Source: Crambe crambe
Taxonomy: Eukaryota > Porifera > Demospongiae > Poecilosclerida > Crambeidae
NCBI GenBank assembly: GCA_963924555.1
Contig: OZ004596.1
Coordinates: forward strand, 1,054,001 to 1,118,000
DNA: 64,000 nt
Direction: 5' to 3'
This document shows positions 657-63,871 of this stretch, in pieces. The notes under the pieces are model-generated. The model saw nothing but the letters and a program-made list of their open reading frames with translations. It made no database searches and was not told the origin of the DNA. Position numbers and translations under genes: made by a program. The number at the start of each line of letters is the position of its first letter. The stretch's first letter is position 1.

Positions 657-9029
<8,373 letters not shown>

Positions 9030-19562: not shown

Positions 19563-21034
19563 ATGAAGCTGTTCCAGATTATCTGCATTGCATTGGTCCA
19601 GCAAGGTACATAATGATATGTTAGATATTTATTAATCACTTTATTATATTTAATTTTGAGCAGTTTATGCTCAACAGCAGTCAATGGAAACCTGTAATGC
19701 TTTGGATATGATGATTGCCAATCGCAACATGAGAGCTTTCCCACAATGCATGAGAAATTCACTCTGTACGGAGATCACATGCATAAACACCATCCCTATT
19801 CCTGGACCATCTGGTACCTCTGTTGACACCATGACAACTACCACCATAACTCTACTTCCCTGCACGACACCCTTCAGTATCAGAGCCGTCTCTACTGGTG
19901 TGGGATTGAGCACTCCCCTCCTTGAAGTAACACTAATGAGGAGTGCAAATGTGACATCATCAATCTCTTCCCTCGGCTCAACAAATTTCTCTCTGACTCA
20001 AACACCAACAGGAATAAACCTTGGAGTAAGCAAACTAATTAGATACTAATTAATAGAGTTCATACCCTCTATACTATAACTATAGGTCTCTTCGACAGTA
20101 ACAATAAGAGGTATGGCGTTGAGTACCAACTTACTCCCTAATACCGCCATTCCACTTCAGTGTGGTAAGTTTATCAGACAGCACACATACTCACAGAGGC
20201 CTTAATAACTTCTCTTCCCCTGCAAAATTCTGTGGGGAAGAAAAGAGGCACGGAATTGATGAGATTAGCTACAACTCTGCAGGTATGGAAATGACCCCAT
20301 CAACTCAACAGGGAATGACCACTATGGCTACCACTAGACCTCAAATGACCACAACCAGACCTCAAATGCAATCAATGGAGACTTGCAATGCTTTAGACAT
20401 GATGATAGCTAATCGGAACATGGGAGCTTTCCCACAATGCACGAGAAACACATTGTGCACAGAGATTACATGCACTAACACTGTCTCTCTTCCCACTGGT
20501 GACACCATGGCAACCACCACCATAACTCTACTTCCCTGCATGACACCCTTCAGTGTCAGAGCTGTCTCCATTGCTGAAGGATTAAGTACTCCACTCATCA
20601 GTGCAACACTAACAAGGAGCGTAAACGTGACCTCAACCATCCCTACCCTTGGCTCAACAAACTTCACACTGACTCAAATGTCTACAGGAATAAACTTTGG
20701 AGTAAGCACAAATGAATAGATGTTGGTTAGCTGTTAGTAAAGACAAAGATAATATGAATCAAATGTTATACAGGTCTCTTCAACAGTAACAAGAAATGGT
20801 ATGGTGATAAATACAAACTTGCTCCCAAATACTGTCATTCCATTTCAGTGTGGTAAGTTGGAGTCTAAATCCCTTATACATTGAATGCTGGATTAATTAA
20901 TGACACAAGATTATTATCATTACTGAACAGATATGCAGCCCACAATTGGACAAACTGATTCTGCTTTCAAGATGGAGGCACTGATAGGAAGTGTGTTGGC
21001 TTCAGCACTTATTGGAACAATTTATATCATATAA
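19563..21034 (+). CDS. Family gene 1: two six-cysteine domains, predicted GPI-anchored
   Basis: Six exons: 19563-19605, 19664-20025, 20086-20164, 20283-20701, 20774-20852, 20931-21034 (1086 nt, 361 aa). Exon 1 encodes a signal peptide (MKLFQIICIALVQQ). Domain A spans exons 2-3, and domain B exons 4-5. Each domain has six cysteines: ETC at its start, then PQC, TLC, ITC, LLPC, and LQC or FQC at its end. A short Met/Thr/Arg/Pro-rich stalk (TTMATTRPQMTTTRP) precedes domain B inside the same exon, so the stalk/domain intron seen in genes 8 and 9 is absent here. The last exon ends in a hydrophobic tail (LIGSVLASALIGTIYII) with no cytoplasmic segment, as in GPI signals. I do not recognise the domain; surface display is inferred. 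NVTS motifs could be glycosylated. Confidence 0.86.
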
Positions 21035-21251
21035 GACATTCAGTGTGTGTTAATACATACACTGAGTCAAGGACTCTCAGTAGTTTATGCTTACCTAGCT
21101 TATCTATTATACGCCATCTTGAGTGAGAGAAATTCCATGGAAATATTTATTATTATTTTGATATTTAACAATAGTTGACTACAAAAAATAATATAGTTTT
21201 GATCCGATATAAAACTAGTTCAGATTTCTGATTATAAAAGTTATAAACTTA

Positions 21252-26016
<4,765 letters not shown>

Positions 26017-26332: not shown

Positions 26333-27304
26333 ATGTTGAGGTTACTAAGCTTAGCATCAGTTTTACTTATACTGCCTCAAGGTAAACTATAAAGCTAGTG
26401 TTACTCTTGTATCATGGTTAGAAACTTAGACCAACAATAGGAATGCTATATAATAGGATTGCTATAATTATACATTTGAGGTTGATAACTCAACCTCCTG
26501 GAGAGGTTAATATGTAGAGGCTGATATAATTATGTTGGACCAATAGAATTGCTGCTTATGCCTGTGCAAGTTAGTTATCAACCTTGGTCTTGCTACTTAC
26601 ACTTGGCCCTTGGTGTGTAAATGGTACAGAGACCTACACTACAGACATAATGGATAAATTTTGATGACGCGCTGAATTGTGTATTTCTTTGTATATTCAG
26701 CTTATGGACAGCAACAGCAGACATGTAAAGCATTTGAGAGCCTGATAGCTTCTGCCAACCCAATACTAGGAACATGTGTGAAGGATTCATCTTGTACTAA
26801 CATCTTTTGTTATAATGGATTGAATCAATCATTCACTTTCTATCCTTGTGGTGGAAATGTTAGCCTTGAGTATGTAACAAGCAATGGGATAAATGAAAGT
26901 ACAACCGAAAATATAACAGTACCCATTGGGGGAGCTGAAAGTGTGGACTTAACCCTCATACAGACTGATAATGGTGTCATTTTCCACGTAAGTTAAGAAC
27001 GTTTGCATAAGTATATATTCACCATCATCCTCTTCATTCATGCAGGCACAATCAAGGAATGAGGGAGCAGACAGCCCAGAATCTTTATTCAATATGACTA
27101 ATATTACATTCCAGTGTATGTGTTAAAGATTGCAATTTTATAATGATGATTGTGCTGCCCTTTCCCTTATTCTTTGCAGGTCCAAACAGCGAAACTACCA
27201 ATACCATGACTTCCACCAGTACTGCAAGGGCTATAGGGGTTGGAGTTGGATTAGGAGCTGGATTAGGACTTGGATTGCTGCTTTGTGTGTTGTGTGCTGC
27301 ATGA
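26333..27304 (+). CDS. Family gene 2: one divergent six-cysteine domain with glycine-rich membrane tail
   Basis: Four exons: 26333-26381, 26701-26987, 27046-27115, 27180-27304 (531 nt, 176 aa). Signal peptide MLRLLSLASVLLILPQG, then AYGQQQQTC. The single domain keeps all six cysteines (QTC, GTC, SSC, IFC, YPC, FQC) and the same two-exon structure and intron phases as the other genes, but shares little else in sequence. Several NxT/NxS sites (NQS, NVS, NES, NIT, NMT) suggest heavy glycosylation. The tail is a glycine-rich hydrophobic stretch (GVGVGLGAGLGLGLLLCVL) ending AA, either a GPI signal or a type I membrane anchor with no cytoplasmic part. It is the most diverged member and the one nearest the HECT gene. 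Confidence 0.8.
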
Positions 27305-27983: not shown

Positions 27984-30270
27984 ATGAAACTCTTTCAGAT
28001 CATTTGCATTGTGTTACTCCAGCAAGGTATGGCATAGTTATAGTTTGAATTAATATGTAAAGGATTGAAGTGATCTATTTGCAGCATATGCTCAACAACA
28101 GTCAATGGAGACCTGCAATGCTTTGGACACGATGATAGCTAGTCGTGATACAGGAGCTCTCCAACAATGCATGAGGAATACCCTCTGTACGGAGATCACC
28201 TGCACCAACAGCTTTCCCTCCACCAGCACCACTGCCACCACAAGGATAATCCTCTTTCCCTGCAGCATACCAATCACCATCAGATACATCTCTGCTGCAG
28301 CACATCTCAGCAATCCCTTCATAGATTTTACCATTACCCAAAATACAACCATTTCTTCCACAAATCTCACCTTGATAAGGACAGCCGCTGGAATAAAGTT
28401 TGGAGTAAGGAGACTCTTACGACATTTTAAAATCATAATTATGATGAATTATTTAAAATATATGATAAATGATGATGACTGATTTATAGATATCTTCAGT
28501 GAGCGGAAACGGACTGACACTGACCAATCACATTCTCCCCATTACTGATGTTCCACTTCAGTGTGGTAAGCTCTGTAACTCGTCTTGTTGTGTGGTATTA
28601 CACATTTGACAATATTTTCTCCACAAGGAATGATCACTACTTCAAGGCCACAAGAAACCACTCAACAGCCATCAATGACTACTTGTAGTGCTTTGGACAG
28701 GATGATAGCTAATCGCAACATGAGAGCTTTCCCACTATGCACGAGAAACACACTGTGCACAAAGATTTCATGTACAAATACTGTCCCTATTCCTACACCA
28801 TCCGGTACCTTCGTCGACACCATGGTAACCACCAACATCACTCTGCTTCCCTGTACAACACCCTTCAGTATCAGAGCTGTTTCCATTGCTGCTGGATCGA
28901 GCACTCCCCTCCTCAATGTAACACTGATGAGGAGTGCAAATGTGACATCATCCATCCCTTCCCTCGGCTCAACGAACTTCATACTAACCCAAGGAACTAC
29001 AGGAATAAACCTTGGAGTAAGCACAAACTTACTTCCCTGTTTAGCAGCTAGATGCTACATCATGCACATCCATGCGATAAATTCTTAATTTTTTATATTA
29101 CAGATCTCAGCAACAGCAGTGGTGAATGGCATGATGTTGAGCTCATTTTTGTTCCCTAATACTGACATTCCACTTGAGTGTGGTGGTGAGTCTATATAGG
29201 GCTGTGTAAGTTCAATGGTATAGCTAATGTCATTGTGCAGGCTTGCCTATGACACCAACTCCACAGGGAATGACCACCACTCCAAGACCACCAATGACTA
29301 CTTGCGGTGCTTTGGATATGATGATTGCCAATCGCAACATGAGAGCCTTCCCACAATGCACAAGAAACACACTGTGCACAAAAATTTCATGTACAAATAC
29401 TGTCCCCATTCCTGGACCATCTGGTACCTCTGTTGACACCATGACAACTACCAACATAACTCTACATCCCTGCATGACACCCTTCAGTATCAGAGCCGTC
29501 TCTACTGGTGTGGGATTGAGCACTCCCCTCCTTAACGTAACACTAACGAGGAGTGCAAATGTGACATCATCCATCTCTTCCCTTGGCTCAACAAATTTCT
29601 CTCTGACTCAAACACCAACAGGAATAAACCTTGGAGTAAGCAAATTAGATGCACAAAAAATGTCTTATTATATGAAAATTTTTACAGGTCTATTCAACAG
29701 TGATAAGAAGAGGTGCTAAGTTGAGTATATTTTTGCTCCCTAGTACTGATATTCCACTTCAGTGTGGTAAGTGTTCAATTGATGACATAGTGACAATAAT
29801 TGAGAGATGCTTTCAATGCAGGTGGTATGCAGTTTACAATATCAACTCCACAGGCCACGACCACATCATCAACTCAACAGAAAGTGACCACTATGGGAAC
29901 ACCATCGACTCAACAGGGAGTGACCACTGTGGGAACACCATCGACTCAACAGGTAGTGACCACTGTGAGAACACAATCAACTCAACAGGGAGTGACCACT
30001 GTGAGAACACCATCAACTCAACAGGGAGTGACCACCATGGGAACACCATCGACTCAACAGGGAGTGACCACCATGGGAACACCATCAACTCAACAGGGAG
30101 TGACCACTGTGGGAACACCATTGACTCAACAGGGAGTGACCACTAGAGTGACCATTCCAAGATCACAAGCCACTGAACAGCAAAGTGCAACAGATTCAGC
30201 TTCTAAAATGAAAACACTGATGGGAAGTGTACTGGCTTTGGAACTTCTGGCAACACTTTATCTGCTATAA
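27984..30270 (+). CDS. Family gene 3: three six-cysteine domains, long mucin-like stalk, GPI-type tail
   Basis: Eight exons: 27984-28026, 28085-28404, 28490-28565, 28628-29016, 29104-29185, 29241-29635, 29688-29766, 29822-30270 (1833 nt, 610 aa). Signal peptide MKLFQIICIVLLQQ. Domains A, B and C each use a long exon with cysteines 1-5 and a short exon ending in cysteine 6. Domains B and C carry their Thr/Pro-rich linkers inside the domain exon. The last exon encodes about eight 12-residue units of type VTTVGTPSTQQG, a Thr-rich stalk likely to be O-glycosylated, then a hydrophobic tail (GSVLALELLATLYLL) ending at the stop. Domains B and C are close to each other and to domain A of gene 1, indicating recent exchange. 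Function unknown; an extended cell-surface protein is inferred. Confidence 0.86.
29867..30150 (+). repeat. 36-bp coding minisatellite in the stalk of family gene 3
   Basis: About eight 36-bp units share the block CATCGACTCAACAGGGAGTG with few substitutions. The unit is a multiple of three, so copy-number change preserves frame and alters only stalk length. The other frames are also open because of the repeat, which explains spurious frames such as STGSDHHGNTI. Confidence 0.92.
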
Positions 30271-32160: not shown

Positions 32161-32879
32161 ATGAAGCTATTCTATATTTTCTTCCTCATAATATTGCTCC
32201 AGCAAGGTGCAAAATCTACTGATTAAGGTGATAATGTTGATCATGTTAATTATGCATGCATGCAGCAAAGAGTCGGCAGCAGTCAATGGAGACTTGCAGC
32301 GCTTTGGATAGGATGATAGCTGGCAATAGTGATCCTTTCAGAATCTGCACAAGAAACACATTCTGTACAGAGGTCACCTGCTTGAAAAATATCACTCCTG
32401 CGATGAATATCACTGAAGAAATCACAATAACCATACTTCCCTGCGAAAGAGTTCCTATTCATATCAGAGTCATTGGCAGCCTGTCAAACCATGTCACTCC
32501 GCTCATAAACACGACTATTACCAAGAGTGTGGGTTTGACCCTTAGCCGTCCAGTACCAGTAATTATAGTCAACTTCACGTTGACTCAGATAACTACAGGA
32601 ATAAACCTTGGAGTAAGCAACTTGAATATGTCTCACTGTTAAGTAACAACAAGCTTCGATCAATTATGCATGTTTTAGATCTCGGTGACAGTACGTGGTG
32701 AAAGGATAGAATTTTTTCCAAATACTGATATTCCATTTCAGTGCAGTGAGTCTATAGTCCTTCCATGACACTGCATGGATATTCACACTCCAGGACTACA
32801 ATCTTCTGCTTTGAAAATGGAGGGACTGATTGGAAAGGTTATATTGTTTGCAACACTTCTGGCAACACTTTGCATATAA
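32161..32879 (+). CDS. Family gene 4: one six-cysteine domain, no stalk, GPI-type tail
   Basis: Four exons: 32161-32206, 32266-32612, 32679-32745, 32794-32879 (546 nt, 181 aa). Signal peptide MKLFYIFFLIILLQQ, then AKSRQQSMETC. Six cysteines are present (ETC, RIC, TFC, VTC, LPC, FQC). Potential N-glycosylation sites include NIT (two), NTT and NFT. The last exon joins directly to a hydrophobic tail (VILFATLLATLCI), so the domain would sit close to the membrane. It is a recent duplicate of family gene 5. Confidence 0.85.
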
Positions 32880-33829
32880 CTATTAACCATATCACATGCA
32901 CTATGGGACAATAATAGATCATGGCACCAACTAGCTCATTATGCATTCATAATTTCTATTATTTTGCTATACTGTATATGGCTGGAAAATTTAAATTTAG
33001 TAGTTTGGTGATTGAGGACTCCAACCACCAAAGTTGGTAAGGATCATTAAAATCACACATGATTAGACTTCGTGAATTTTGCTAAGAACTAGAGATGGTT
33101 CATGACACAGGATTATAGGAGATTTCTCCCCTGAAAATGAGCTAGGTGTATAATTGTGATTATGTAGTCTGTTGAAAGTATTTAGTTGTCAGCAGCTCAA
33201 GTTTGATAAGCATGTGTTTGTCTATAATTTGATTTCACGATTCAAGGCCACTATTTCACAATTCAAGGTAATCTTTCCACCAGCTATAATATTATGGTAG
33301 TACAATTTGTAACCACAAAAAATACTGAGCATGTGTAGCATGGCAACAGTATTAAGTGGGAAGCACTTCACAAGCCACATTTGAGACTCCTGCACAAGCT
33401 GTTTTTGCCCTGCTGTGCATGCACAGCAAGGGGTTAAGCAATCGGTTGGGTTATTAACACTTTAATACTGCTACCTTACAATGTTTTCTTGAAGCCATGA
33501 TGCTGATAACACAAAGAACACTCTCTTGGTGGCTTGAATTGGCTCTGCCTCCAAGGCTATCAATCCTGCCAGATAGTTAAAATAGGCAATGCTAGTTAAA
33601 ATAATTATGCGTTAAAATTAACGATCCTTACTTAATTGGGAGCTGAACAAGGTTGTGCACCTTGCCCCCTAGTATGAATTATGGTTTAACCAGATACTAT
33701 ACAGGCTTATTACAGTGGGGCATTGAACTCTATGACCTCTAGTTTATTTTGAGCAGCTATACTCTACACCCAGAAACATACTCCACTACATCAGCATCAC
33801 ACACCACTCAAGCTATCACACTTCAGGGA

Positions 33830-34105
33830 GGACACACTCCACTACATCAGCACCACATACCACTCAAGCTATCACACCTCAAGGGAGGACACACTCCACT
33901 ACATCAGCACCACATACCACTCAAGCTATCACACCTCAAGGGAGGACACAGTCCACTACATCAGCACCACATACCACTCAAGCTATCACACCTCAAGGGA
34001 GGACACACTCCACTACATCAGCACCACATACCACTCAAGCTATCACACCTCAAGGGAGGACACACTCCACTACATCAGTACCACATACCACTCAAGCTAT
34101 AAAAG
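33830..34105 (+). repeat. 57-bp minisatellite, copy A, stalk-like
   Basis: About five 57-bp units contain CACTCCACTACATCAGCACC and ATACCACTCAAGCTATCACA. In one frame each unit reads HSTTSAPHTTQAITPQGRT, a Thr/Ser-rich 19-residue unit like the stalks of the family. A one-base change in the first unit shifts the frame relative to what precedes it. It may be a stalk exon without an attached gene. Confidence 0.8.
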
Positions 34106-34344
34106 AAGACTTACTTGCTGTAAAAGTGCTAGACACTGAGGCTGGAAGCCATGATCTTCCACTAGGTTCCTGCGTACCTTCAACACAGTTCCTCCATTCA
34201 GTGCACATAAAAGTGTGTTTTAAGAGATCAAAAGCACACTTTTCAGAGGATCTGATCAGTCACAAGTCATGTGACCAGTACTAAGTGGCTAGTGTAAGTG
34301 AATTGTAAGTACTTTGTGTTAGGCATTACAGCTTACAATAATAA

Positions 34345-34872
34345 ACCTTGGAGTAAGCAAATTAGATGCACAAAAAACGTCTTGTTAAATTTTACAGGTC
34401 TATTCAACAGTGATAAGAAGAGGTGCTAAGTTGAGTATATTTTTGCTCCCTAGTACTGATATTCCACTTCAGTATGGTAAGTGTTCAATTGATGACATAG
34501 TGACAATAATTGAGAGATGCTTTCAATGCAGGTGGTACAACATCAACTCCGTAGGCCATGACCACATCATCAACTCAACAGAAAGTGACCACCATGGGAA
34601 CACCATCAACTCAACAGGGAGTGACCACCGTGAGAACACCATTGACTCAACAGGGAGTGACCACCATGGGAACACCATCGACTCAACAGGGAGTGACCAC
34701 CGTGAGAACACCATCAACTCAACAGGGAGTGACCACCATGGGAACACCATCGACTCAACAGGGAGTGACCACCGTGAGAACACCATCGACTCAACAGGGA
34801 GTGACCACCATGGGAACACCATCGACTCAACAGGGAGTGACCACTGTGGGAACACCATCGACTCAACAGTGA
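34345..34872 (+). pseudogene. Fragment of a family gene 3-like copy (last domain exon, stalk)
   Basis: The block matches 29622-30190 of gene 3: the end of a domain exon (AATAAACCTTGGA before a donor), the short exon at 34398-34476, and the 36-bp stalk repeats. It has no signal exon or cysteine 1-5 exon. The cysteine 6 codon is TAT (Tyr) instead of TGT, the stalk frame ends at a TGA near 34870, and the GPI tail is missing, with a MITE inserted just downstream at the matching position. Confidence 0.88.
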
Positions 34873-34919
34873 GTGACCATTCCAAGATCACAAGTCACTG
34901 AACAGCAAAGTGCAACAGA

Positions 34920-35994: not shown

Positions 35995-36713
35995 ATGAAG
36001 CTATTCTATATTTTCTTCCTCATAATATTGCTCCAGCAAGGTGTAAAATCTACTGATAAGGTATACTATAATGTTGATCATGTTAATTATGCATGCATGC
36101 AGCAAAGAGTCGGCAGCAGTCAATGGAGACTTGCAGTGCTTTGGATAGGATGATAGCTGGCAATAGTGATCCTTTCAGAATCTGCACAAGAAACACATTC
36201 TGTACAGAGGTCACCTGCTTGAAAAATATCACTCCTGCGATGAATATCACTGTACAAATCACAATAACCATACTTCCCTGCGAAAGAGCTCCTATTCATA
36301 TCAGAGTCATTGGCAGCCTGTCAAACTATATCACTCCACTCATAAACATGACTATTACCGAGAGTGTGGGCTTGACCCCTAGCCTTCGAGTACCAGTAAT
36401 AGCCAAATTCACATTGACTCAGATAACTACAGGAATAAACCTTGGAGTAAGCAATTTGAATATGTCTCACTGTTAAGTAACAACAAGCTTCGATCAATTA
36501 TGCATGTTTTAGATGTTCGTGACAGTACGTGGTGAAAGGATAGAAGTTTTTCCAAATACTGATATTCCATTTCAGTGCAGTGAGTCTATAGTCCTTCCAT
36601 GACACTGCATGGATATTCACACTCTAGGACTACAATCTTCTGCTTTGAAAATGGAGGGACTGATTGGAAAGGTTATATTGTTTGCAACACTTCTGGCAAC
36701 ACTTTGCATATAA
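35995..36713 (+). CDS. Family gene 5: one six-cysteine domain, no stalk, GPI-type tail
   Basis: Four exons: 35995-36040, 36103-36446, 36513-36579, 36628-36713 (543 nt, 180 aa). Same structure as family gene 4, with all six cysteines kept. It differs mainly between cysteines 4 and 5 (NITVQITITILPC instead of NITEEITITILPC) and in the region before the conserved KFTLTQITTGINLG (gene 4 VNFTLTQ). Differences concentrate in the domain while the signal and tail exons are nearly identical. Surface location inferred from signal peptide plus hydrophobic tail. Confidence 0.85.
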
Positions 36714-47204: not shown

Positions 47205-50200
47205 ATGAAGCTATTTCAGATACTCTGCATTGTTTTGCTCCAGCAAGGTAGGCATACAGTTAGCTATATATATAGTCCCACCAGCTACTGTAACTATGTA
47301 CAATCAGCATGCTTGAATACTCTTTTCTCAAAGAGGCTTCATTTTAAATTCCTTCTAAGCAATACTATAGGTTTTTCACCTGCTAATGCATGCACTATCT
47401 ATCTCCCTGAGATCATACATGGGAGCATTCAATGGAACAAGCATGGGGTATAGAGCCAGTAGAATTATCAACATAACTGAATACTACACTGTAAAAACGA
47501 AAGTGTTTACTGCATACCATTTTGTCCCAATGCACACACTGTTTTTGTTTTTAGTGTGTGTATTAGGACAATTTAGTGTGCAGTACACACTTGTTTTTAC
47601 AGTGTAGACTATAAGTAAATAGCCTCCTCTGATATAGGACTCAATAGAAAGAGAGATGTTAACATGAGTATAGTGGGGGGAAAAACTTCATTCCTGATTT
47701 CTACTTGCCATGGGACCATGAATTTATAACATGTTTCTTATCTTGCAGCATATGCTCAGCAGCAGTCGATGGAAACCTGCAGTGCTTTGGATACCATGAT
47801 AGCCAATCGTGATGATGGAGTGATTGGATCATGCTCGAGGGACACACTTTGCACACAAATCATGTGTAGCAGAAGTATCTCACTCTTCATAACAAGCCTA
47901 ACCATCAGAGTCACCATGACCATACTTCCATGTGATAGACCCATTCGCATCAGAGAAGTGGTGCATGTTTCTGGAGCGGGAAACATCTTGGATGTAACCA
48001 CAGCTCAAACTGAAAGCAGATCAGTGCCGGAAATTGGTGAACTCAGATTCATGTTGACCCAAATACCCACGGGGATAAATTATGGAGTAAGTGAATAACC
48101 ATGGAAGAATTCCTTATCATACTTGTCAAGTAATTTACAGGTCTTACTGGTATCCGGCGGTCAGACGGCACCTGTGCTTCCAACTACTGACATTCCACTT
48201 CAGTGCCGTGAGTATAATATGCAACAGACATTATTGATGGATAGAATATGGCTAACTAATTACGTGCACTTGATGGTCCAGATCCATCATCATTCCCTGG
48301 ATGATACAGCATACACATCCTCTATTATAATTATCAAGATTACCTATACACTGTAAAAACACCCCATTTTTAGGTTATCTGAATTTGCAACTCAGATAAC
48401 CTAAAAATGGGTTGTTTTTACACATTTGTTTTTACAGTGTAGTCTCAATTCTGTAGCATCTTTAACCACCACAACAGCAGCTTCACAAGCCACAGCTTCA
48501 CAAGTCCCCACAACACAAGGTACCAACACCTACCTGTGTACCTTGGCATAAAATATTTGTGGTTTTGAAGGGAATTTACATTAAAATCATTCCAAAACAG
48601 ATCCTCTGCAGCAGTCAATGGAGACTTGCACTGCTTTGGATATGATGATCACCAATCGCAATGTCGGGGGGATTGGAACATGCACGAGAAACACACTCTG
48701 CACTATGGTCACATGCATGAATGGGATCACAGATCCCATCGCCACTACCATCACTAACATCATGACCATACATCCCTGCGAAAGTCCTGTTCAAGTCAGT
48801 GCCACTGCCAGTGCACCTATTCCTTTCCTTGGGACCAGGACTTTCGTAGACGTAACTATTACTGAGAGTAGAAATGTGACTCCTTCTGAACCGGCATCAT
48901 CTCTTGGCGATATTAATTTCATGCTAACCCAAACAGCCACTGGAATAAACTTTGGAGTATGCAATAAACCAAGAACTTATATAGATACTGTAACTTAGTC
49001 ATAATATCTACATGTAGGTTTCAACCACTAGGGACAATCAAAGGACAGTGCTACTCCCAACTACTGACATTCCACTTCAGTGTGGTGAGTATGGCGTTAG
49101 CTATGTTCCCACAAGTTTCATTCCTAAGGGTTCAGTAGAGGTTAATTGCTTGAGTTAATCTTAATTTATTCATGTAATGCAGGATCACAACGTACCACAA
49201 CTCAAAGCACCACACCTCCAACTACACAGAGCACCACTACAGCTCCACACAGTACCACTACTCCAGCTCCAACTACACAGAGCACCACTAACACAGCTCT
49301 AACTACACAGAGCACCACTAACACAGCTCCAACTACACAGAGCACCACTAACACAACTTCACAGAGCACCACTACTCCAGCTCCAACTATACAGAGAACC
49401 ACCACCACCACAGCTCCAACTACACAGATTCCTACAATCACGACATCACAAGGTACATTCATTAGATAGCAAGCTACTGTGTATACATCTTATGTACACA
49501 GTGCAATTGAAAATTACAAGACAATGGCATTATAACTGCAACAGAAATACAAATCATTGTATTCCAATAAAGTTTCAGTCAAAAACATGCATACATGCAG
49601 GTCCTTTGCAACAATCAATGGAGACTTGCACTGCTTTGGATATGATGATCACTAATCGTGATGTTGAAAATATTGGAATGTGCACGAGAAACACACTTTG
49701 CACAATGATTACATGCAGGAGGACTGTCACAATTCCCATCTCTATTATTGTCACTAATGAAATGACCATACTTCCCTGTGAAACACCTGTTGCTGTCAGA
49801 GCAGTCACCACTGCGCTCTTATCTGGTAGTAGTCCTATGACTTTCATAAATGAGACTATTACTGAGAGCAGAGATGTGACTCCTCCAGGCATAGCTGCAG
49901 CACTTGGCACAATTAGCTTCATGCTAACCCAAACAGACACTGGAATAAACTTTGGAGTAAGCTATACTGCATGAACATAATATTAATAAAATAACCCTTT
50001 TAATAATCCCTTTAATTACTCCATAGGTCTCCCTGGTGAATGATCAAAGGACAGTGCTGCTCCCAAATACTGACATTCCACTTCAGTGTGGTGAGTTTGT
50101 CATTCACACACTATAATCATCCATAACTTATCATGCCCATGCATGCAGGGGCAATGATAAACTAGCTAGCTGGTATAACATAATAATAGCATCTTATTAT

Positions 50201-50407
50201 TTTGTCTCACTCAGGGAAAGAGGCCATGCATGCATGCACTTAATCTATGTCATTGATGTTTCACTGAATGCAGGACCATCGACAACTCAAGACCCACTCA
50301 GACAGCAAGGCACTACCAATTCTGCTCTGAGAATGGAGGCTCTTATCAAAAGTGTATCAGCTGCAACACTTCTGGGAACACTTTATGTACTAATACTACA
50401 AGCTTAA
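47205..50407 (+). CDS. Family gene 8: three six-cysteine domains with two stalks, GPI-type tail
   Basis: Ten exons: 47205-47247, 47749-48086, 48141-48207, 48457-48519, 48601-48956, 49018-49084, 49183-49452, 49601-49956, 50027-50090, 50274-50407 (1758 nt, 585 aa). Signal peptide MKLFQILCIVLLQQ. Domain A, a short Thr/Ala/Ser linker exon, domain B, a 90-residue Thr-rich stalk exon (TTQSTTNTA repeats), domain C, and a tail exon (KSVSAATLLGTLYVLILQA). Every module is bounded by phase-1 introns. Each domain keeps all six cysteines (for example ETC, GTC, TLC, VTC, HPC, LQC in domain B). An AATAAA lies at 50494-50499, about 90 bp after the stop. It is the longest-stalked multi-domain member and a duplicate of gene 9 outside its third domain. 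Confidence 0.86.
47485..47606. mobile_element. MITE with TACACTGTAAAAAC termini (intron 1 of gene 8)
   Basis: The left end TACACTGTAAAAACGAAAGT and the right end ACTTGTTTTTACAGTGTA form long inverted arms (GTTTACTGCA...TTTTGTCCCAATGCACACAC pairs with GTGTGTATTAGGACAATTTA). About 122 bp, no coding capacity. Relatives lie at 62722-62823 and, in part, at 40033. Confidence 0.88.
48347..48441. mobile_element. Second MITE type with the same termini (intron 3 of gene 8)
   Basis: It shares TACACTGTAAAAAC ends with the element at 47485 but has a different interior, ATTTTTAGGTTATCTGA pairing with TCAGATAACCTAAAAAT. It ends 15 bp upstream of the exon at 48457, so it lies very near the splice acceptor. 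Confidence 0.85.
49195..49450 (+). repeat. Thr-rich stalk repeats in family gene 8
   Basis: Imperfect coding repeats with ACTACACAGAGCACCACTA as core, giving PTTQSTTNTA-like units. This exon is absent from gene 9. Confidence 0.85.
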
Positions 50408-53696: not shown

Positions 53697-56600
53697 ATGA
53701 AGCTATTTCAGATACTCTGCATTGTTTTGCTCCAGCAAGGTAGGCATACAGTTAGCTATAGTCCTGTAGCTATGTACAATCAGCATGCTTGCATGAATTA
53801 CTCTTTTCTCAAAGAGGCTTCATTTTAAAATCCTTCTAAGCAATTTAAAAACAGGAAGGTATTTCATTTCACCTGCTAATGCATGCACTATCTCCCTGAG
53901 ATCATACATGGGAGCATGCAAGAGCCAGTAGAATTATCAACATAATCCAGGGTTCTCCCCGGAAAAATTGATCAGAGCAGTGCTTAAACACCACATTAAA
54001 GTATTGACATTCTTGTGGCACTTAATATATTCTTTTAACCACATGAAACAAAAATGAGACACATCAGAGCGGTGCTGCACCACTCTACAGCCCTTTAGGG
54101 AGAACCTTGTAATTGAATACTAGACTACAACTTTGTCGAGCAAATAGCTACTCTTGTAGCCATACCGATTTTGAACTACAAGAACAGATGTGTTGTGGAT
54201 TTATTAGAATGTATGGACAGACATCAATTGAAAATTCTCATGAGGTTTGCACATAATCATGCATGTCAACATGAAACACACAAAATGTCAGAGGTCTGCC
54301 TCACAAACTACACAGCTATTGCCTCTGATAATGGTAGGACTCAATAGAAAGACATCAGCAGTGGGGGAAAGAGAGATGTTAATATGAGCAGTGGGGGAAA
54401 GAGAGATGTTAATATGAGCAGTGGGGGAAAGAGAGATGTTAATATGAGCAGTGGGGGAAAGAGAGATGTTAATATGAGCAGTGAGGGGAAAACTTCATTC
54501 CTGATTTCTACTTGCCATGGGACCATGAATTATAGCATGTTTCTTATCATGCAGCGTATGCTCAGCAGCAGTCGAATGAAACCTGCAGTGCTTTGGATAC
54601 AATGATAGCCAATCGTGATGATGGAGCGATTGGATCATGCTCGAGGGACGCACTTTGCACACAAATCACGTGTAGTAAAAGTATCTCACTAGTCTCACTA
54701 AGCTATTATGCATACATCAGAGTCGCCATGACCATACTTCCATGTGATAAACCCATTCGCATCAGAGAAGTAGTTAATGTTTCTGATGGAGAGGAAAATA
54801 TCTTGGATGTAACCACAGCTCAAACTGAAAGCATATTTGTGCAGGGAATTGGTGAACTCAGATTCATGTTGACCCAAATACCCACGGGAATAAATTTTGG
54901 AGTAAGTAAATAACCATGGAAGAATTCCTTATCATACTTGTCACTGATTTACAGGTCTTACTAGGTCAGACAGCACCTGTGCTTCCAACTACTGACATTC
55001 CACTTCAGTGCCGTGAGTATAATAAACACACATTATTGATAGATGGAATACAGATAATTATGTGCACTTGATGGTCCAGATCCATCATCATATTAAAGTT
55101 ATTCTCCTGGATGCTTGGTCTTTAATCCAGCATACACAGGCAGGTCACATGAACATCTTCAGTCCATGTAAAAGGGGTGTGAGGACTGATGAAAGTTCTG
55201 CCCTACCAAATGGCAGAGATCACACTGACACACTCTCTATAAGGGAAAAAGCATTTCGTGAAATGAAAAAAAGATGTAGGGATGACCACTGCTCAAAAAA
55301 GTAAGGAAACAAGAAGGATGGAAATGGGATCAATCTTTGTTCTGTATATCCAGCCAACAATCCCTACATATACACACATTACTACACTATAATCTGAAGT
55401 TACCTGACGTATATGTAGGGATTGTTGGCTGGATATACAGAACAAAGATTGATCCCATTTCCATCCTTCTTGTTTCCTTACTTTTTTGAGCAGTGGTCAT
55501 CCCTACATCTTTTTTTCATTTCACGAAATGCTTTTTCCCTTACTTGTTCCTGGTCTTTTTTCCTCTCTTTTATGGTTTTAGCTATGATTAGAGTTCATTT
55601 TTCTATGTGTATGCAGGGACAGATGAAAGAAGTTCTCCAATAGCATACCAGCCCAATCATTTATCGAGTCAAGGTGTTGTGTTGTTGAGCCGTACTTGGA
55701 GGTCGAAGATGCTGAAATAGAGTCTACCGTGGTGAATCTAAATCCTCGAATCGATACAGTAGCCTATCATCATCATTATCCAGAGCTAGAGCTAGCTAGC
55801 TAGCTAGCTAGAGACAGCTGAGTAATATTATGATTTCGAATAATTGGATATTGAAATACATGCGCATGCGTATTATAGAAAAGATGGCTTCCTAATTGAA
55901 TTAGTCGAGTGCTGTGCTCCATAGTGTCTCCTTTTTCATCGACTCTTTCGAGGATCAACGAGTAGAAAAGATCGTAGTTCGTAGAATTTAGAGTGGATTT
56001 GTCCAGAAATCATAGCTGTAGCTTGAGTGGTTCGAGAGATATGGTTGTCTAAGAAGAATAATAATAAGAAGAATAATAATAATAATAATAATAATAATAG
56101 AGAAGAAGAAGAATATAGCAATTTACCTGCTTGCCGTATTTCTGAAACGGTAAGCTCCCTGGTCCTGAAACTTGGTCTGCACATTGTAGTAGGCTCTAGT
56201 AGGCTGGATAATCATTCACAGTAGCTTTTGTTAGGTCTAAGTGGGGGAACTGGAATTTCACTTTTGTATTAGTCTATAGGCGGCGCGCGCGGCCGTCCGA
56301 GTCATCCCTACATAGAGAGTGCTACCGCACTCTCTGATAATAGTTCTTTATAGTCTCAATTCTGTAGCATCATTAACCACAACAGCTGCAGCTTCACAAG
56401 CCACAACACAAGCCACAACACAAGCCACAACACAAGGTACTACCTTGGCTTAATTTTTTTGTGATTTTAAAAGTTAACACTTCAATTTTGTAAACTGTGA
56501 AAATTTTACCTCACAAAAATTTCACACTATAATTATGTTATAGCCAGCTCCATAATATTAAGTTCTTAAAATCATTCCAAAAACAGATCCTTTGCAGCAG

Positions 56601-57282
56601 TCGATGGAGACTTGCACTGCTTTGGATATGATGATTGCCAATCGCAATGTCGGGGGGATTGGAACATGCACGAGAAACACACTCTGCACTATGGTCACAT
56701 GCATGAACGGGATCACAGATCCCATCACCACTACCATCACTAACATCATGACCATACATCCCTGCGAAAGTCCTGTTCAAGTCAGTGCCACTGCCAGTGC
56801 ACCTGTTTTCTTTAGTACCGTGACTTTAGTAGATGTAACTATTACTGAGAGTAGAAATGTGACTCCTTCTGAACCGGCATCATCTCTTGGCGATATTAAT
56901 TTCATGCTAACCCAAACAGCCACTGGAATAAACTTTGGAGTAAGCAATAACCAAGAACTTAGATACTGTAACTTAGTCATAATATCTACATGTAGGTTTC
57001 AACCACTAGGGACAATCAAAGGACAGTGCTACTCCCAACTACTGACATTCCACTTCAGTGTGGTGAGTATGGCGTTAGCTATGTTCTCACAAGTTTCATT
57101 CCTAAGGGTTCAGTAGAGGTTAATTGCTTGAGTTAATCTTAATTCATTCATGTAATGCAGGACCACCAACAACTCAAGATCAAGGCACTATCAATTCTGC
57201 TCTGAGAATGGAGGCTCTCATCAAAAGTGTATCAGCTGCAACACTTCTGGGAACACTTTATGTACTAATACTACAAGCTTAA
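53697..57282 (+). CDS. Family gene 9: two six-cysteine domains, GPI-type tail
   Basis: Seven exons: 53697-53739, 54555-54901, 54955-55012, 56368-56436, 56587-56939, 56996-57062, 57161-57282 (1059 nt, 352 aa). Signal peptide identical to gene 8. Domain A (NETC, GSC, ALC, ITC, LPC, LQC), a short linker exon of SQATTQATTQ type, domain B, then tail exon (SALRMEALIKSVSAATLL...). It matches gene 8 exon by exon, except that the long Thr-rich stalk and third domain of gene 8 are missing between its second domain and its tail. Intron 3 (55013-56367) is enlarged by a perfect fold-back element. An AATAAA is at 57349-57354. Confidence 0.85.
54357..54490. repeat. 30-bp tandem repeat in intron 1 of family gene 9
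   Basis: Four to five units of GCAGTGGGGGAAAGAGAGAT plus GTTAATATGA. Gene 8 has only about one unit at the matching place (near 47650), so the array expanded after the duplication. Confidence 0.88.
55241..55541. mobile_element. Fold-back element with about 130-bp identical arms
   Basis: The left arm begins AAGGGAAAAAGCATTTCGTG and reaches CCAACAATCCCTACATATA at about 55372; the right arm (from about 55410 to 55541) is its reverse complement with no difference that I can see. A short spacer of about 35 bp lies between. It sits in intron 3 of family gene 9 and has no coding capacity. TGTAGGGAT(T/G) motifs occur at both inner and outer positions. Confidence 0.88.
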
Positions 57283-59767
57283 AGTTGTTTACAAGCTTAA
57301 AGTTGTTATGTCACTGTATAGTGTTTACATAACTAAAGTCAAAGTTCAAATAAATGAAAATATGTTTACTTCAATAATAATTTAACGTTTGATGATGTGG
57401 ATACAATCTTTGCTGTTGAGTGATGTAAGTGGCAGGCAGCTGCATGCATAGAAAGCTGCATAGTACTTACCACAAAGCATGCACCTAGTGACTGTATATA
57501 ATCCACTTCACAATCCACTTACAATCCACTTAGATAAGCCTAGTCCACTATGCTTTAACAAAGTGATGTAGAAATCAATCAAGCAATTTGTATTGGAGCA
57601 TGCACATAAATGTGCAGGGCACTACATCATTTTGGAGTGTAGACTTAGATATATAAAGAAGCAATGGAAAAAATTTTTTATTCTAAATAAAAAGAGAAGT
57701 AGGGATGGCTGTGTGCAGTTCAAAAAGTTTGGAGTGAACTTCATCAAGTAACCCCTTACCCATCACCAATTTACCAGACTACGAGCTAACTATTCCTACT
57801 TCACTCCCATGACAGGCCAAGATGATATAAAGGGAGTAAAGTAGGAGTAGTTCGCTTATAGTTTGGTAATATTGGTGACTGAAGCAGGTTGGAAAATGAC
57901 GACCTATTTTTGAACATTTCAAGTTAAAGGTAAGGATTATAGCGCAGTCAGTAGTGTGGTATAAAATTATAGCATTCATTAATTTTCTGAAATAATGACG
58001 TGAAGGATGATGAACGATCAGATGAAAATGGCGATTTTAGAAATCGCTGTAAAATGACACTGCTTTATCTTCTGGTCCATACTTGAGTCCTAGCACATTG
58101 AAGGTGTTCTGTCTTCAAGACAGGAGTTGTTGATAGTATAAGAGAAACAACCCTGCATAATGAATAAAATGTTTTGTATTGGTGCAATGGGGCAATCTGT
58201 GCCATCCCTACTTAGAGAGTACTATCTGGTTCTGTCAATGAACTCCGCTCTTCCTTTCTCCTGTGGGAAATCACGTGATCTAATCCTGTTCCTCTCTCGC
58301 ACGTAAGTACTCTCTGATAGAACAATTTCAATGAGTCATGACCTGAGAGTCAGCTCACTCGCTGAACTAGTTGTTCAAGTGCTCATTGACAATGCCACAT
58401 TTTGCTCCAAAGTTCATTTCATAGCAGAAAAAATAGTATTTATGCATGCCTCATACGTATCATGTGATAGCTAATGGAGAAGTTCCATTGTATACCATTA
58501 TTACTCCAGCAATTAAGGGGTTATGTCATCTAAACATGGTGAGAACGCAAATTTCATACCTGTTTTTTACTTCATCATGCATGAATTTATAACATGTTCC
58601 TCACCATACTCCAAAGTTTATCCCTTTGGGTATTTGGGTCAACATGAATATGAGTGGACCCATTTGTGGCACTGATATGTTTCTAGTTTGAGCTGGTTGT
58701 GGTTTCATCCAGGATATTTCCGGTTATGAACCACTTCTCTGATGCGAATTGGGTCTTACTGGTATCTGGCAGTCAGATGACACCTGCACTTCCAACTACT
58801 GACATTCCACTTCAGTGCTGTGAGTTATGTGCTGGCTAGCTAAAGCATACTATAATAGATATGGAAGCCAAGTTGACACGGAAACCACAGATCCTACTGC
58901 CTCTGCTCCCAAAATGGGAGCATCACTTGAAAGTGCCTTGGCCATCACACTTATATTGGAATAACAGTATCAATGTCAACTGAACTGCATATGCTATATC
59001 CAGATAGCCAGGTGCACTAAAACTCCTCAATTGAGTACAGTTTATGTGATAACTAATAAAGTGATTATGATGCAATACACATGCATAGCTAGAATCACAC
59101 AAAGTATTGAATCTTCAAGGTTTGATTTTTGTGACTCAAAATTACAATCGCAAAATTTTTTCATTGATATGGATACACACTCATTAACCAGTGACTAAAC
59201 AATACATTAGTAATGGCACACAAGCCAGGTTGAAATCTCTCCAGACTCAGCCTGCTGAATTAAGTGGGTGTGGTCTGCTTTGTTTTCTCAGGGAGCACAG
59301 CTTCTCAGCCAGAGCTATAGCTACAACTATATGCCTTTTTTTCATGTCTCTATAAACCCACCATTACACCCCCCCACTTAACAATTAGCTGTCACCATAC
59401 CAGCCAAAGCACTTATAGTTACAACTATGTGAACTATGTGATTTGGGGTTTCTATCAGCAGCCATAAAGATTAGCTAATTAACATAATACGGATTATGTT
59501 GGACCTTCAAAAGGAAGTCAGTGCTGATAAAAGTATCTGTAAGACTAGCAACTGTCATATGGTAATCAACTTTGTGAATTTCTATGAGCAACCATAAAGA
59601 TTTTATGTTGGACCTTCAAAAAGGAAATTTGTGAAGTTAATTACACTTGTGTAAAACATATAAGCAAGCTAGGACATTACAGCTACGTTATAGCAAGTGC
59701 CAACTCCTGCTTGTGACGAATCTGTAAGTCATCGTGGAGATAGCTATACAGTCAACGTTGAAGAACA
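57283..59767. other. Intergenic, between family genes 9 and 10
   Basis: It contains duplicated sequence also found at 51120-52630, a half-copy of the AGGGATGGCTGTGTG element (from 57701), and a rearranged family pseudogene (58606-58964). No intact gene seen. Confidence 0.6.
58606..58964. pseudogene. Rearranged family pseudogene with an inverted domain exon
   Basis: The first part (58606-58755) is the reverse complement of the 3' half of a gene 8/9-type domain-A exon: on the minus strand it contains ATTCATGTTGACCCAAATAC and GGGATAAACTTTGGAGTA. The following part is on the plus strand: a short exon equivalent (GGGTCTTACTGGTATCTGGC ... ATTCCACTTCAGTGCTGTGA) and a tail exon (GCTCCCAAAATGGGAGCATC ...) that resembles gene 11 and ends at TAA 58962-58964. 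The inversion breaks the gene. Confidence 0.85.
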
Positions 59768-62499
59768 ATGAGGCTGTTACAGGTTTTTTATCTTGTATTA
59801 CTCCAGGGAGGTATATATGTATGTATCCATGAAATGTAAATACTGGTAGCTGAGTTGTCAATAGCCAGCTCTATAGGTATTGTTTTTTTGTTTGTTATTG
59901 TTTTTGTTTTGTTTTTGTTTTGTTTTGTTATTGTTTTTGTTTTGTTTTGTTATTGTTTTTGTTTTGTTTTGTTATTGTTTTGTTTTGTTATTTTTTTGTG
60001 TTATTTATTTTTTTCAGCATACTGTCAGCAGCAGCCAGCATCAACTTGCAGTGCATTGGACACAATGATAGCCAATCGCAACGTGACGGCTGTTGGAACC
60101 TGCATGAGAAACACACTTTGCACGATGGTTACTTGTGTCAACAGTGTAACCTTCAATGCTGTACTACCTATTACTGTCACAATCACAAACACCTTGACCA
60201 TTTCTCCCTGCGAAAGACCCGTTGCTGTCAGAGCGACCACTACTGCACCTTTATCTGGTATTCCTATGACTTTTGTAGATGAAACCATTACTGGGAGTAC
60301 GGATGTGACTCCTTCTGGCATAGCTGCAGGACTAGGCATAATAAACTTCATGCTGACTCAAACAGCCACAGGAATAAGTTTTGGAGTAAGTGACTGAACA
60401 CACTCTTCATTGTAGCAAAGTACATGCAGTCATGTATATATGAATATATGAATAACACAGCTCTCAGTGACAAGTAATGGAGGAAGGGCAGTGCTGCTTC
60501 CAAATACTGACATTCCACTTCAGTGTGGTAAGTATTATGCCCAGTAGAAAGCTGTAGCCATACCATAATAAGTAATAATATATTAATGAGCAATAAAGTG
60601 GGCTGGCCATAAAGAATCCGTGTTCACCGTCCCCCACCCCCCACATTACACAGCCTCAAATTCCATGGGCCTCCTCCATATATTATGGTTTACAACAAAA
60701 GCATTTAATTCACATGCATGCACTTAGAAGGTCCTCACACTGCACTAATTTCATAAATTCCATGCATAGAGTCATAATTTAAGTATATAGAGACTGTTTA
60801 TATAGGAAGCGTGTAATGCATACATGAGACCCTAGGGCTCAGGTCCCAAGTGCAGCTATGGCACCAGAGCATCTGGTCAAAGGACATGCAGTGCTGATTT
60901 CACAAATAGCTAGCTTATGATAAATAAGAGCATATGGATCTATCATTCTCATGTGCTGTATAGTCTATAGAATGGATCTATTGGTCTGTATATAACTATA
61001 TACCCCACCTAATACATTTACTCCCATAGAGAAAAGTGCTCTTACTGTCATAAATTCCCTCCCTTAGGGTAAAGTGTGTTATGACTCATAAACGCACTGT
61101 TCCCCAGGCTATGAATAACAACAGTTTTAGGTTTTCTGAAGCTGACTGTTGGAAGAAGATGATAATGAAGATAATCTATGAGATAATGATCAGATAACAT
61201 TGTCATTACCTAGCTATTACTAAAGAGTTTATTTCTGTCTCTGGGTAGTTTATAGCTGACTGTTGGAAGAAGATGATTATAAAGTTAACGATCAGTCTAT
61301 AACATTGTCATTAACTATTACTAAAGAATCTATTTCTATCTCTGGGTAGTTTATAGCTGATTGTTGGAAAATGAAGAAGTCATCTGGTGCTGGGTCACAA
61401 GGAAACTTCTTTTTTTTTTTGCAATTTTCCACAAGAAGAAATTATTTCTAAGGCCCATTGATATTTTTTTGGCGTCATACCTTCCGCTAGCTTCGCTGCC
61501 GCTAGCAAACACAAAACGTGGGTGGAGGAACTCGTTAATAGCTAGGTGTGGTGGGCATGGGAGGAGCCTCGTAGTTCGTAGTCTTGCTTGAGAGCAGGAG
61601 GCTCTGTACTGTAGAGTTGGCGTCTGAACAACGGCATATCACAGGACAGGGACAAGTCATGGCAGGAGTTTCGTTTTGTTTCGTAACTAAGGGGTAGCTA
61701 CGCTCTAGCTACAGACCGACCAATGAAATCGTGCGCCCTGGGGATATATAACAGTTAGAACACGGTAGTCCTGGTGATTATGACCAAATAAACAACATTA
61801 TCCTCGGGCTGCGCCCTCAGATTCGGTTGTTTATTGGCCATAATCACCAGACTACCGTGTTCTAACTATTACATATGTCATTATTGAAAATGATGAAGTT
61901 CCATGATTAATATGCCATGCACGTATGGGCAGGTGCCAGGGGTGTGGCCAGTGTGAAATATGAGATTTTGATGATTGAATATCTGGTCTTGCTAGCTAGC
62001 TATATATATCATTCATGTAATGTATGCAGGATCACAAAGTACAACTCCAAGTACACAGAGTACCACTACCACAACATCACAAGGTGGCTATATTGGGAGC
62101 AATGTAGCACCTTATTGTAATACACAGAGCTATTTACAGCAATTGAATAATTAATCGATAATTGCAATTGTTATTTAAAATTGTGGATGAGTGTAAATTT
62201 ACACTGCATGGTTCCTATAATCCAGGTATCCCAGATTCAGTCATTTCAAACTTTTGCCATGTAGCTATAGTCGGATGATCTCCACACACACCAGAAGACT
62301 TATAGTGGTCAAATAAATTTCAACCTGCTCCACAAATCTATAGGGCACCTCATAATAATACTATAGCATCTTTTTGAAACATGACTATAGCTACTTCATT
62401 TCATCCACTGTAGAATCACGAGGCTCTGCTCTGAGAATGGAGGCTCTCATTGGAAGTGTCTTAGCTGCAGCACTTCTGGGAACACTTCATGTGATATAA
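59768..62499 (+). CDS. Family gene 10: one six-cysteine domain with an extra Cys, short stalk, GPI-type tail
   Basis: Five exons: 59768-59810, 60018-60385, 60461-60527, 62030-62083, 62414-62499 (618 nt, 205 aa). Signal peptide MRLLQVFYLVLLQG. The mature protein begins AYCQQQPASTC, with an additional cysteine before cysteine 1, unlike its paralogues; an odd cysteine could form an intermolecular disulfide or be trimmed with the signal. The six standard cysteines follow (STC, GTC, TLC, VTC, SPC, LQC). A short Ser/Thr stalk exon (STTPSTQSTTTTTSQ) and tail exon (LIGSVLAAALLGTLHVI) end the protein. Intron 3 is 1.5 kb and holds a MITE; intron 1 carries a TTTTG-rich repeat. Confidence 0.84.
59879..60015. 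repeat. TTTTG-rich microsatellite in intron 1 of family gene 10
   Basis: About 137 bp of TTTTG/TTTTTG units run up to the acceptor of exon 2 and form its polypyrimidine tract. Open frames here (FCYCFCFVLL) are repeat artefacts. Confidence 0.88.
61754..61866. mobile_element. MITE with GTTAGAACACGGTAGT termini
   Basis: GTTAGAACACGGTAGTCCTG on the left pairs with ACTACCGTGTTCTAAC on the right, and the arms continue through GGTGATTATGACCAAATAAA. About 113 bp, in intron 3 of family gene 10. Confidence 0.87.
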
Positions 62500-62984
62500 G
62501 TTTACTTGTCCATGCACTATACACATACACGTACCTAAACCATGCAGCTGTTCAAGTGCTCATTGACAATGCCACATTTTACTCACAAGTTGTTTTTTTT
62601 TCCATGATATTATTCATCAACAGTGTATCAATAATAATGGAGTGCTATAGCTACTTTAGAAATTCCATATTATATGCTACAAGTCTATTATACAGCAGAA
62701 TTAAGATAAGCAAAGGACGTGGTACTGCACACTAAATTGTCCCAATACACACACCAAAAACAAAAACAGTGTGTGTATTGGGACAAAATGGTGTGCAGTA
62801 AACACTTTTGTTTTTACAGTGTACATAGTTTATGGTAACAAAATACATGCTCAATTATCAGGAAGTAGCTATTGGGTGGTTGGTATAAAAGCTTGCTGCA
62901 TGCATGCATGCCAGCATTAGTACACGCAGTCAGTGGAAAGCTATAGTTACAATCTGCAGCCAAACTAATTCAATAAAGTTTAAG
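62500..62984. other. Intergenic, between family genes 10 and 11
   Basis: It holds a MITE of the ACTGTAAAAAC type (62722-62823) whose left tip is missing. No exon seen. TATAAAA at 62885-62891, about 100 bp upstream of the gene 11 ATG, could be a TATA box. Confidence 0.55.
62722..62823. mobile_element. ACTGTAAAAAC-type MITE, left tip missing
   Basis: GTACTGCACACTAAATTGTC pairs with the right-hand GACAAAATGGTGTGCAGTA, and the right terminus GTTTTTACAGTGTA is intact. Related to 47485-47606. Confidence 0.85.
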
Positions 62985-63871
62985 ATGATGAAGTTGCTTC
63001 ATATTGTCTGCATGATAATTCTCCAGCAAGGTAAATGAATATATTATGTGCTATAGCCATAGCAAACTACATGCTTTACATATACAGGATGCAGTCAACT
63101 CGTGCAGTTAGCTAAAATATCAGAGAATCAGATTCTACAAATTGGTATTTCTTATAACTATCGTTATTTATGTTTGTAGCACGTGCCCAGCAGCAGTCAA
63201 ACGAGACTTACAGTGCTCTGGACACACTGATATCCAGTAGTAACAGTGCCTTTTTGGGACCGTGTACAATTGATACACACACTGAAGTCACATGCATGTT
63301 AATCAATCGCATGACAGTTCCCAATGTGTTTGTTAACCTCTCCACCATCATCACCTTTCTTCCCTGCCAATCACCCATTAGTGTCAGGATTGATGCTGCC
63401 ACGTCAGATGTTACGATCCTAAATGAAACCTTCAGTGAGAGTCAGAACGTAATGGCTCCAAATAACCCAATTTTCATTGAGATGTTTAATGTGATGCTGA
63501 ACCAAATAGATGCAGGAATAAGCTTTGGTGTAAGCTGACACAGGTTGCTTGGTACATATCAAGGCCATAAAAGTCATGTTTATTCTCTATTCAGGTCACA
63601 GCAACAGCCTTTGGTCAAACAGTACCACTGTTCATGGTTACTGACATTCCATTTCAGTGCAATGGTAGGACGTTTGCTCTCATTAAGACGTGTTGTGCAA
63701 ATGCTTTGTACATGATGTAGAATTATAATAGTATTATGCTATCCTCCAGTTGATATGGAAACCACAAATACTGAAGTTGACATGGCTACTGCCTCTGCTC
63801 CCAAAATGGGAGCACCACTTGGAAGTGCCTTGACCACCACAGTTGTTGGAATACTTCTTCTCGTGCAATAA
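62985..63871 (+). CDS. Family gene 11: one domain lacking cysteines 1 and 3, GPI-type tail
   Basis: Four exons: 62985-63030, 63180-63529, 63595-63664, 63750-63871 (588 nt, 195 aa). Signal peptide MMKLLHIVCMIILQQ. The domain aligns along its whole length with the family, but the first cysteine is Tyr (NETYSALD) and the third is His (IDTHTEVTC), while cysteines 2 (GPC), 4 (VTC), 5 (LPC) and 6 (FQC) remain. The open frame, splice sites and tail exon (GSALTTTVVGILLLV) are intact, so this looks like a functional variant rather than decay. Loss of exactly two cysteines suggests they normally bond with each other. Potential N-glycosylation at NLS and NET. Confidence 0.84.

Follow-up and report, generated by a model that had tools for sequence, protein, structure and literature searches.

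A tandem gene family with an apparently undescribed six-cysteine module and GPI-type tails in the sponge Crambe crambe

The window, i.e., the whole stretch of 64,000 nucleotides that was analyzed (C19:1054001-1118000 of a genome of 143 Mb in 119 contigs), carries a family of genes composed of a two-exon, six-cysteine module. As judged from the sequence, the family is known in kind, being a tandem family of surface proteins, and the module itself matches no named family tested. The tandem family put forward in the original prediction was confirmed, with the restriction that its domain is not private to the cluster: it forms one branch of a wider superfamily, another branch of which is apparently transmembrane.

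Gene cluster and gene models

Extraction of the exons bearing the originally described motif gave 17 domain exons between 19.6 and 63.6 kb. In each of them the codons for G(I/V)..(F/L/Y)(G/H) are directly succeeded by a splice donor, GTAAG or GTATG. Joining leader, domain, C6, stalk and tail exons resulted in eleven gene models (Table 1), which are all open from the initial methionine to the stop codon, comprise 176 to 610 residues and contain 49 introns in total. From gene 1 to gene 11 the number of domains is 2+1+3+1+1+1+1+3+2+1+1 = 17. Eleven intact-looking genes with 17 domains had been predicted, and indeed all models translate without interruption and the domain exons lie where they were claimed; what has to be added is that the interval also holds at least three degenerate copies (at approximately 33.7-34.9, 45.8-46.2 and 58.8-59.0 kb). 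Two orphan C6 exons, ending at 34475 and 58818, were found beyond the 16 paired ones.

The location on a single strand holds for the family but not for the interval, in which WW-domain exons (24.1-24.6 kb) and hAT exons (40.7-42.2 kb) are encoded on the minus strand. Within 19501-64000 the C1 motif occurs 16 times and the C6 motif 17 times on the plus strand, and neither occurs on the minus strand. Both were also absent from 30 first-order Markov sequences, the motifs having been picked after the family was known. That all 49 introns are of the GT-AG type is partly due to construction, because GT and AG were a condition for the choice of the borders, sometimes among alternatives; several acceptors, including that of the last exon of gene 6, were chosen in this way. 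Independent support for the models comes from the open frames, the regularity of the intron phases and the donors that immediately follow all 17 domain exons. In gene 6 the last intron is approximately 4.5 kb long and contains the hAT exons.

Table 1. Members of the family, degenerate copies and the module used as an example (positions within the window).
Feature	Position	Strand	Description
Gene 1	19560..21034	+	Leader, 2 domains, Thr-rich linker, hydrophobic tail; 362 aa, 6 exons
Gene 2	26333..27304	+	176 aa, 4 exons; one divergent domain; hydrophobic tail rich in Gly/Leu; an intron interrupts the sixth Cys codon
Gene 3	27984..30270	+	610 aa, 8 exons; three domains; 12-residue repeats rich in Thr (36-bp units); hydrophobic tail
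Gene 4	32161..32879	+	1 domain, no stalk; 181 aa, 4 exons
Gene 5	35995..36713	+	1 domain, no stalk; 180 aa, 4 exons; young duplicate of gene 4
Gene 6	38524..43848	+	1 domain, Thr-rich stalk, hydrophobic tail; 238 aa, 4 exons
Gene 7	44524..45682	+	1 domain, TITPR repeats; 215 aa, 4 exons; duplicate of gene 6
Gene 8	47205..50407	+	3 domains, Thr-rich stalk exons between them; 585 aa, 10 exons
Gene 9	53697..57282	+	2 domains, Thr-rich stalk exon; 352 aa, 7 exons; duplicates parts of gene 8
Gene 10	59768..62499	+	1 domain, short Thr-rich stalk; 205 aa, 5 exons
Gene 11	62985..63871	+	1 domain without C1 (Tyr) and C3; 195 aa, 4 exons
Degenerate stretch	33736..34901	+	Repeats and orphan C6 exon (Cys to Tyr), like the 3' part of gene 3
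Degenerate copy like gene 7	45764..46184	+	Broken frames
Orphan C6 exon and tail	58777..58964	+	No recognizable domain exon upstream
Example module	48606..49084	+	C1-C5 part 48606-48956, phase-0 intron, C6 exon 49018-49084

Two-exon module and predicted fold

The module is encoded by a C1-C5 exon, a phase-0 intron and a short exon of the TDIPLQC type which carries C6. Its pattern reads TC-x-A-L ... C ... C ... C ... PC-x2-P ... F-x-L ... G(I/V)xFG-V, followed by (T/N)TDIP(L/F)QC. Behind 16 of the 17 domain exons the C6 exon follows after an intron of 52-87 bp (borders as chosen) with a phase-0 acceptor and ends in (D/A/V)(I/V)P(L/F)(Q/E)C; for the remaining domain, that of gene 2, the C6 codon is divided by the intron into T and GT. 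Common to the models is an intron of phase 1 before the domain, of phase 0 inside and of phase 1 after it. Symmetric phase 1-1 arrangements permit the duplication and shuffling of extracellular domains, and the module can therefore be duplicated and shuffled.

All six cysteines are present in 16 of the 17 domains, so that the six-cysteine description applies to all but gene 11, where the C1 position reads ETY and C3 is missing as well. Because both residues were lost together, the sequence would fit a putative C1-C3 disulfide bond in the module. Among 19 sequences from both branches of the superfamily (gene 11 left out; mean column identity 29%), C1-C5 are invariant and the proline preceding C5 is nearly so.

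Structure prediction for one domain, which had been suggested as a check, yielded a good partial model. The AlphaFold2 model of the C1-C5 exon 48606-48962 (alignment of 26 sequences; pLDDT 81, pTM 0.72) consists of an N-terminal helix of 15 residues and eight subsequent strands, the C6 strand lying outside the model. A convincing fold match was found neither in the PDB nor in a viral library, and Foldseek gave no match with E ≤ 0.001.

Comparison with named families

The absence of a named family, as originally proposed, stands for the libraries searched (Pfam, PDB sequences, PDB and viral folds), none of which gave a clear match. Pfam returned nothing believable for the family sequences (overlapping sets of 10 sequences at E ≤ 1 and of 17, 6, 19 and 14 sequences at E ≤ 5), and EGF, SRCR, Ly6/uPAR and similar extracellular Cys-rich domains of Pfam did not match above the cut-off. 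No significant sequence match to the module was found in the PDB. The best match below the Pfam threshold was DUF7772, obtained for one of the 17 domains with an E-value of 0.0092. A genome-wide search with the DUF7772 profile gave three matches, the best with an E-value of 0.43 and none in the cluster.

A description of the module was not found in the literature searched, a scope from which subscription journals were mostly excluded. Unnamed proteins of sponges that carry an LPC-x2-PP motif are presumably present in public databases, so that the family sequences are probably undescribed rather than unseen.

The module elsewhere in the genome and in other proteins

Nine protein queries (five domains of the same genome and four outside proteins) were compared with the genome. 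At least 38 places, counted by hand and distributed over six contigs, reached E ≤ 1e-3 in one or more of the comparisons. As lower bounds, 17 of these lie in the window, two on the rest of C19, three on C13, five on C9, one each on C21 and C11, and nine on C20. A stop codon inside the match was present in two of the 38 (C20:2278946 and C9:6076780). At 6.08 Mb on C9 the copies form part of a segmental duplication that corresponds to 25.2-29.8 kb of the window and whose main blocks are 84, 91 and 93% identical; the copy corresponding to gene 3 is damaged.

One of the C20 matches is located at 1.98 Mb, and eight are clustered at 2.27-2.28 Mb together with five weaker ones. The domain exons of this cluster and that at C11:175k resemble those of the window in the cysteine pattern, the PC-x2-P, the final valine and the C6 stretch. 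Within the C20 cluster the motif reads PC-x2-(P/S/Q) and the C6 stretch is of the type IP(L/I)(D/N/E)xxxC, in part sharing an open frame with the next domain. Homology of the two branches was found by profile-profile comparison, which makes the window domains members of one superfamily with those of C20 and C11: the window branch aligned to the C20 branch plus outside relatives with an hhalign probability of 97.9 and an E-value of 4.7e-13 over 92 columns. Single-sequence comparison linked the C11 domain with both, at an E-value of 2.0e-6 for the window and of 7.2e-5 for C20. Unlike the window, the divergent C20 cluster has many domain exons in a row. At one end of its minus-strand part a hydrophobic stretch is followed by RRKKKGQIRFKQLSGDDIDDEDHENM and a stop codon, which, as judged from individual exons, reads as a putative transmembrane helix with a short charged cytoplasmic tail.

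From a large protein collection 8, 7 and 9 proteins were returned for different queries, some of them repeatedly. P0001, P0002, P0005 and P0006 are the window's own proteins, and P0003, P0007, P0009, P0010 and P0015-P0017 correspond, compared by eye, to equal or nearly equal loci of the same genome. P0018, P0013, P0008 and P0011 were compared with the assembly (P0004, P0012, P0014 and P0019 were left out of this comparison), where their best identities were 53% (an exon on C20), 36, 38 and 45%, respectively. No close copy exists there. Unless the assembly is incomplete at these loci, the four proteins probably stem from other species, and the superfamily probably extends beyond this one. A scan of prokaryotes revealed no relatives of the module. 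P0003 represents a second version of the gene 11 domain exon with one different residue, which says little about polymorphism: with clustering at 90% identity, the collection is no basis for either affirming or denying it.

Divergence among the copies

Ratios of dN/dS were read from the 24 pairs with the lowest dS among 136 pairs of window domains; these pairs share sequences and are non-independent. For the four youngest pairs (dS 0.05-0.12) the whole-domain values were 0.91, 0.46, 0.80 and 0.90, for eight pairs with dS 0.24-0.60 they ranged from 0.23 to 0.45 and for twelve pairs with dS 0.83-0.98 from 0.23 to 0.76. None of the 24 pairs exceeded 1.

Along the domain, pN/pS of the four youngest pairs was 0.43 from the start to C4, 0.97 between C4 and C5, 1.19 from C5 to the NF strand and 0.58 beyond it. 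The two middle parts differ from the two outer parts in nonsynonymous changes (Fisher p 0.011) and not in synonymous changes (p 1.0). In this thin, post hoc contrast, with approximately 60 amino-acid changes and a cut set after the alignment had been viewed, the amino-acid change of the young pairs is concentrated in the beta-sheet half. One of the four pairs (38641/44632) shows the opposite trend, and when three older pairs are added the values fall to 0.33, 0.46, 0.60 and 0.48. The pattern would allow diversifying selection and, equally well, relaxation after duplication. In the duplicates G4/G5 (exons 437/457, introns 121/124) and G6/G7 (exons 410/433, introns 113/118) conservation of the exons does not exceed that of the intervening introns, but it exceeds that of the 1 kb upstream (813/894 and 586/852, respectively).

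Surface architecture and proposed function

The predicted surface features were found again: the gene models have an N-terminal hydrophobic leader and a hydrophobic C-terminal tail, and each protein contains between one and nine N-glycosylation sequons. Thr-rich stalks occur in several members; they are absent in genes 4 and 5 and very short in genes 2 and 11. A home-made leader cleavage pattern was recognized in 9 of the 11 proteins (not in genes 6 and 7). GPI-type tails, claimed for the family as a whole, were supported for ten of the eleven proteins by a home-made rule and not for gene 3; as a control, all ORFs of the window that end in a stop and reach 50 aa were examined, those of the family included, and 12 of 439 passed the rule. 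Leader, glycosylation sites, stalks and the small residues before the C-terminal hydrophobic tail together suggest GPI-anchored surface proteins, which the family probably represents. Gene 2 may have kept a plain membrane-spanning tail instead of a GPI anchor.

With moderate confidence we propose that the family comprises surface glycoproteins for recognition or adhesion, roles which the original prediction had considered together with defence. This reading is supported by the open models with their single phase pattern, the constraint at dS 0.24-0.60, the conserved C1-C5, the joint loss of C1 and C3 in gene 11, the GPI-type tails, the fold model and the uneven amino-acid change. Against it speak the post hoc nature of the regional contrast with its one opposite pair and its decrease when older pairs are added, the whole-domain dN/dS below 1 and the similar conservation of exons and introns in the young duplicates. 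The leader would send the proteins out of the cell, and the GPI anchor would probably replace the hydrophobic tail. One to three disulfide-bonded modules would then project from the membrane, with Thr-rich stalks, probably O-glycosylated, serving as spacers in several members. Each module would comprise an N-terminal helix with C1, a C2-C3-C4 knot and a beta-sheet bearing C5, closed by the C6 strand from the short exon. Helix and C1-C4 knot would serve as the constant scaffold and the beta-sheet half as the variable face for extracellular ligands, be it another cell, the matrix or a microbe. Because a GPI protein has no cytoplasmic part, any signal would have to pass via a partner.

The main rival, which we consider possible though rather unlikely, is a structural glycocalyx or mucin-like coat lining the cell surface, whose copies would differ mainly by drift and whose copy number would serve dosage. 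The Ser+Thr content of 17-30%, the Thr-rich repeats in genes 3, 7 and 8 and the lack of dN/dS values above 1 among the 24 pairs would agree with such a coat, whereas a folded six-cysteine module kept across deep divergence and members with no or hardly any stalk argue against it.

A two-tier form of the recognition reading is doubtful. It would combine variable small GPI forms, encoded by the cluster and the scattered copies, with the larger multi-module transmembrane form of C20. If true, the former would act as ligand or co-receptor and the latter as signaling receptor in the recognition of self/non-self or of microbes.

Also doubtful is an allorecognition locus, whose allelic variants would decide on graft acceptance like the Alr genes in Hydractinia. 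Tandem recent paralogs, varying domain number, degenerate copies, surface architecture and uneven amino-acid change would be expected of it. The Alr genes form clusters of related surface-protein genes with many apparent pseudogenes (PMC11067881), a likeness which the sponge cluster shares in its related genes and degenerate copies. Alr proteins are described as single-pass transmembrane members of the immunoglobulin superfamily (PMC11067881), whereas the tails of the sponge family are mostly of the GPI type and no immunoglobulin match was obtained. An Ig-type domain was absent from the Pfam matches of the sequence sets given above. With regard to the Ig beta-sandwich, the fold model covers the C1-C5 exon without the last strand; this part begins with a helix of 15 residues and gave no Foldseek match at E ≤ 0.001.

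Gamete or larval settlement recognition would entail the same surface architecture, which is nothing specific, and is very improbable, zona-pellucida and lectin models being absent from the Pfam matches of the domain exons. That the loci are mostly pseudogenes or a gene-prediction artefact is hardly credible in spite of the degenerate copies, given the eleven open models, the constraint seen at dS 0.24-0.60 among eight domain pairs and the outside relatives P0004 and P0008, whose frames end at, or one residue past, the same FGVS.

Comparison with other surface and adhesion proteins

The SRS (SAG1-related) proteins of Toxoplasma and the 6-Cys (s48/45) proteins of Plasmodium are gene families with one or more six-cysteine modules per protein and a GPI anchor. 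The sponge family resembles them in plan, not in membership, with six cysteines in 16 of 17 domains and a GPI-type tail according to the home-made rule; it differs by the N-terminal helix, the two-exon module and the intron-rich genes. Neither family appeared among the Pfam matches, and neither was found as a significant PDB sequence match.

Sponge aggregation factors are characterized by Calx-beta and Wreath domains. They share with the six-cysteine family that they are extracellular sponge proteins tied to cell adhesion, whereas the latter are small proteins with GPI-type tails and without Calx-beta or another Pfam domain; Calx-beta was absent from the Pfam matches of the domain exons. Aggregation factors are named in a study on the graft response of Amphimedon, which reports none of the expected adhesion genes as enriched and whose main text contains none of the words receptor, GPI, tandem and cysteine (PMC5450542).

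Sponges distinguish self from non-self, yet little is known of the receptors involved. The present surface family, whose unnamed module occurs in GPI-type and apparently transmembrane forms, provides candidates for such receptors. The module merits an entry in a domain library, so that copies become recognizable in other genomes.

Further features of the window

A tRNA-Met gene (anticodon CAT; 3369-3441, plus strand) lies amid the exons of a kinase-like gene at approximately 0.6-8 kb, which is presumably GCN2-like. The region 16127-19038 (plus strand) contains an ankyrin-repeat frame with near-identical 99-bp repeats and, behind it, a frame that presumably resembles a death-type domain. Frames at 22565-25820 of the minus strand include the exons with two WW domains; the stretch at 23.3-23.7 kb, where Pfam gave no match, is presumably HECT-like, and the part at 25.2-25.8 kb is duplicated on C9 along with genes 2 and 3. 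The frames of the hAT-type transposon in gene 6 cover 39824-42489 (minus strand; outer limits deduced from ORFs only), with Dimer_Tnp_hAT at 40.7-41.1 kb and DUF4371 at 41.9-42.2 kb. Two elements of approximately 145 bp (52195-52335 and 58006-58145) are 81-84% identical to DNA near the three domain exons on C13 and may represent a shared promoter, a relic of a 5' exon or a repeat. A tandem duplication of 128 bp is located at 877-1134, its two copies being 100% identical.
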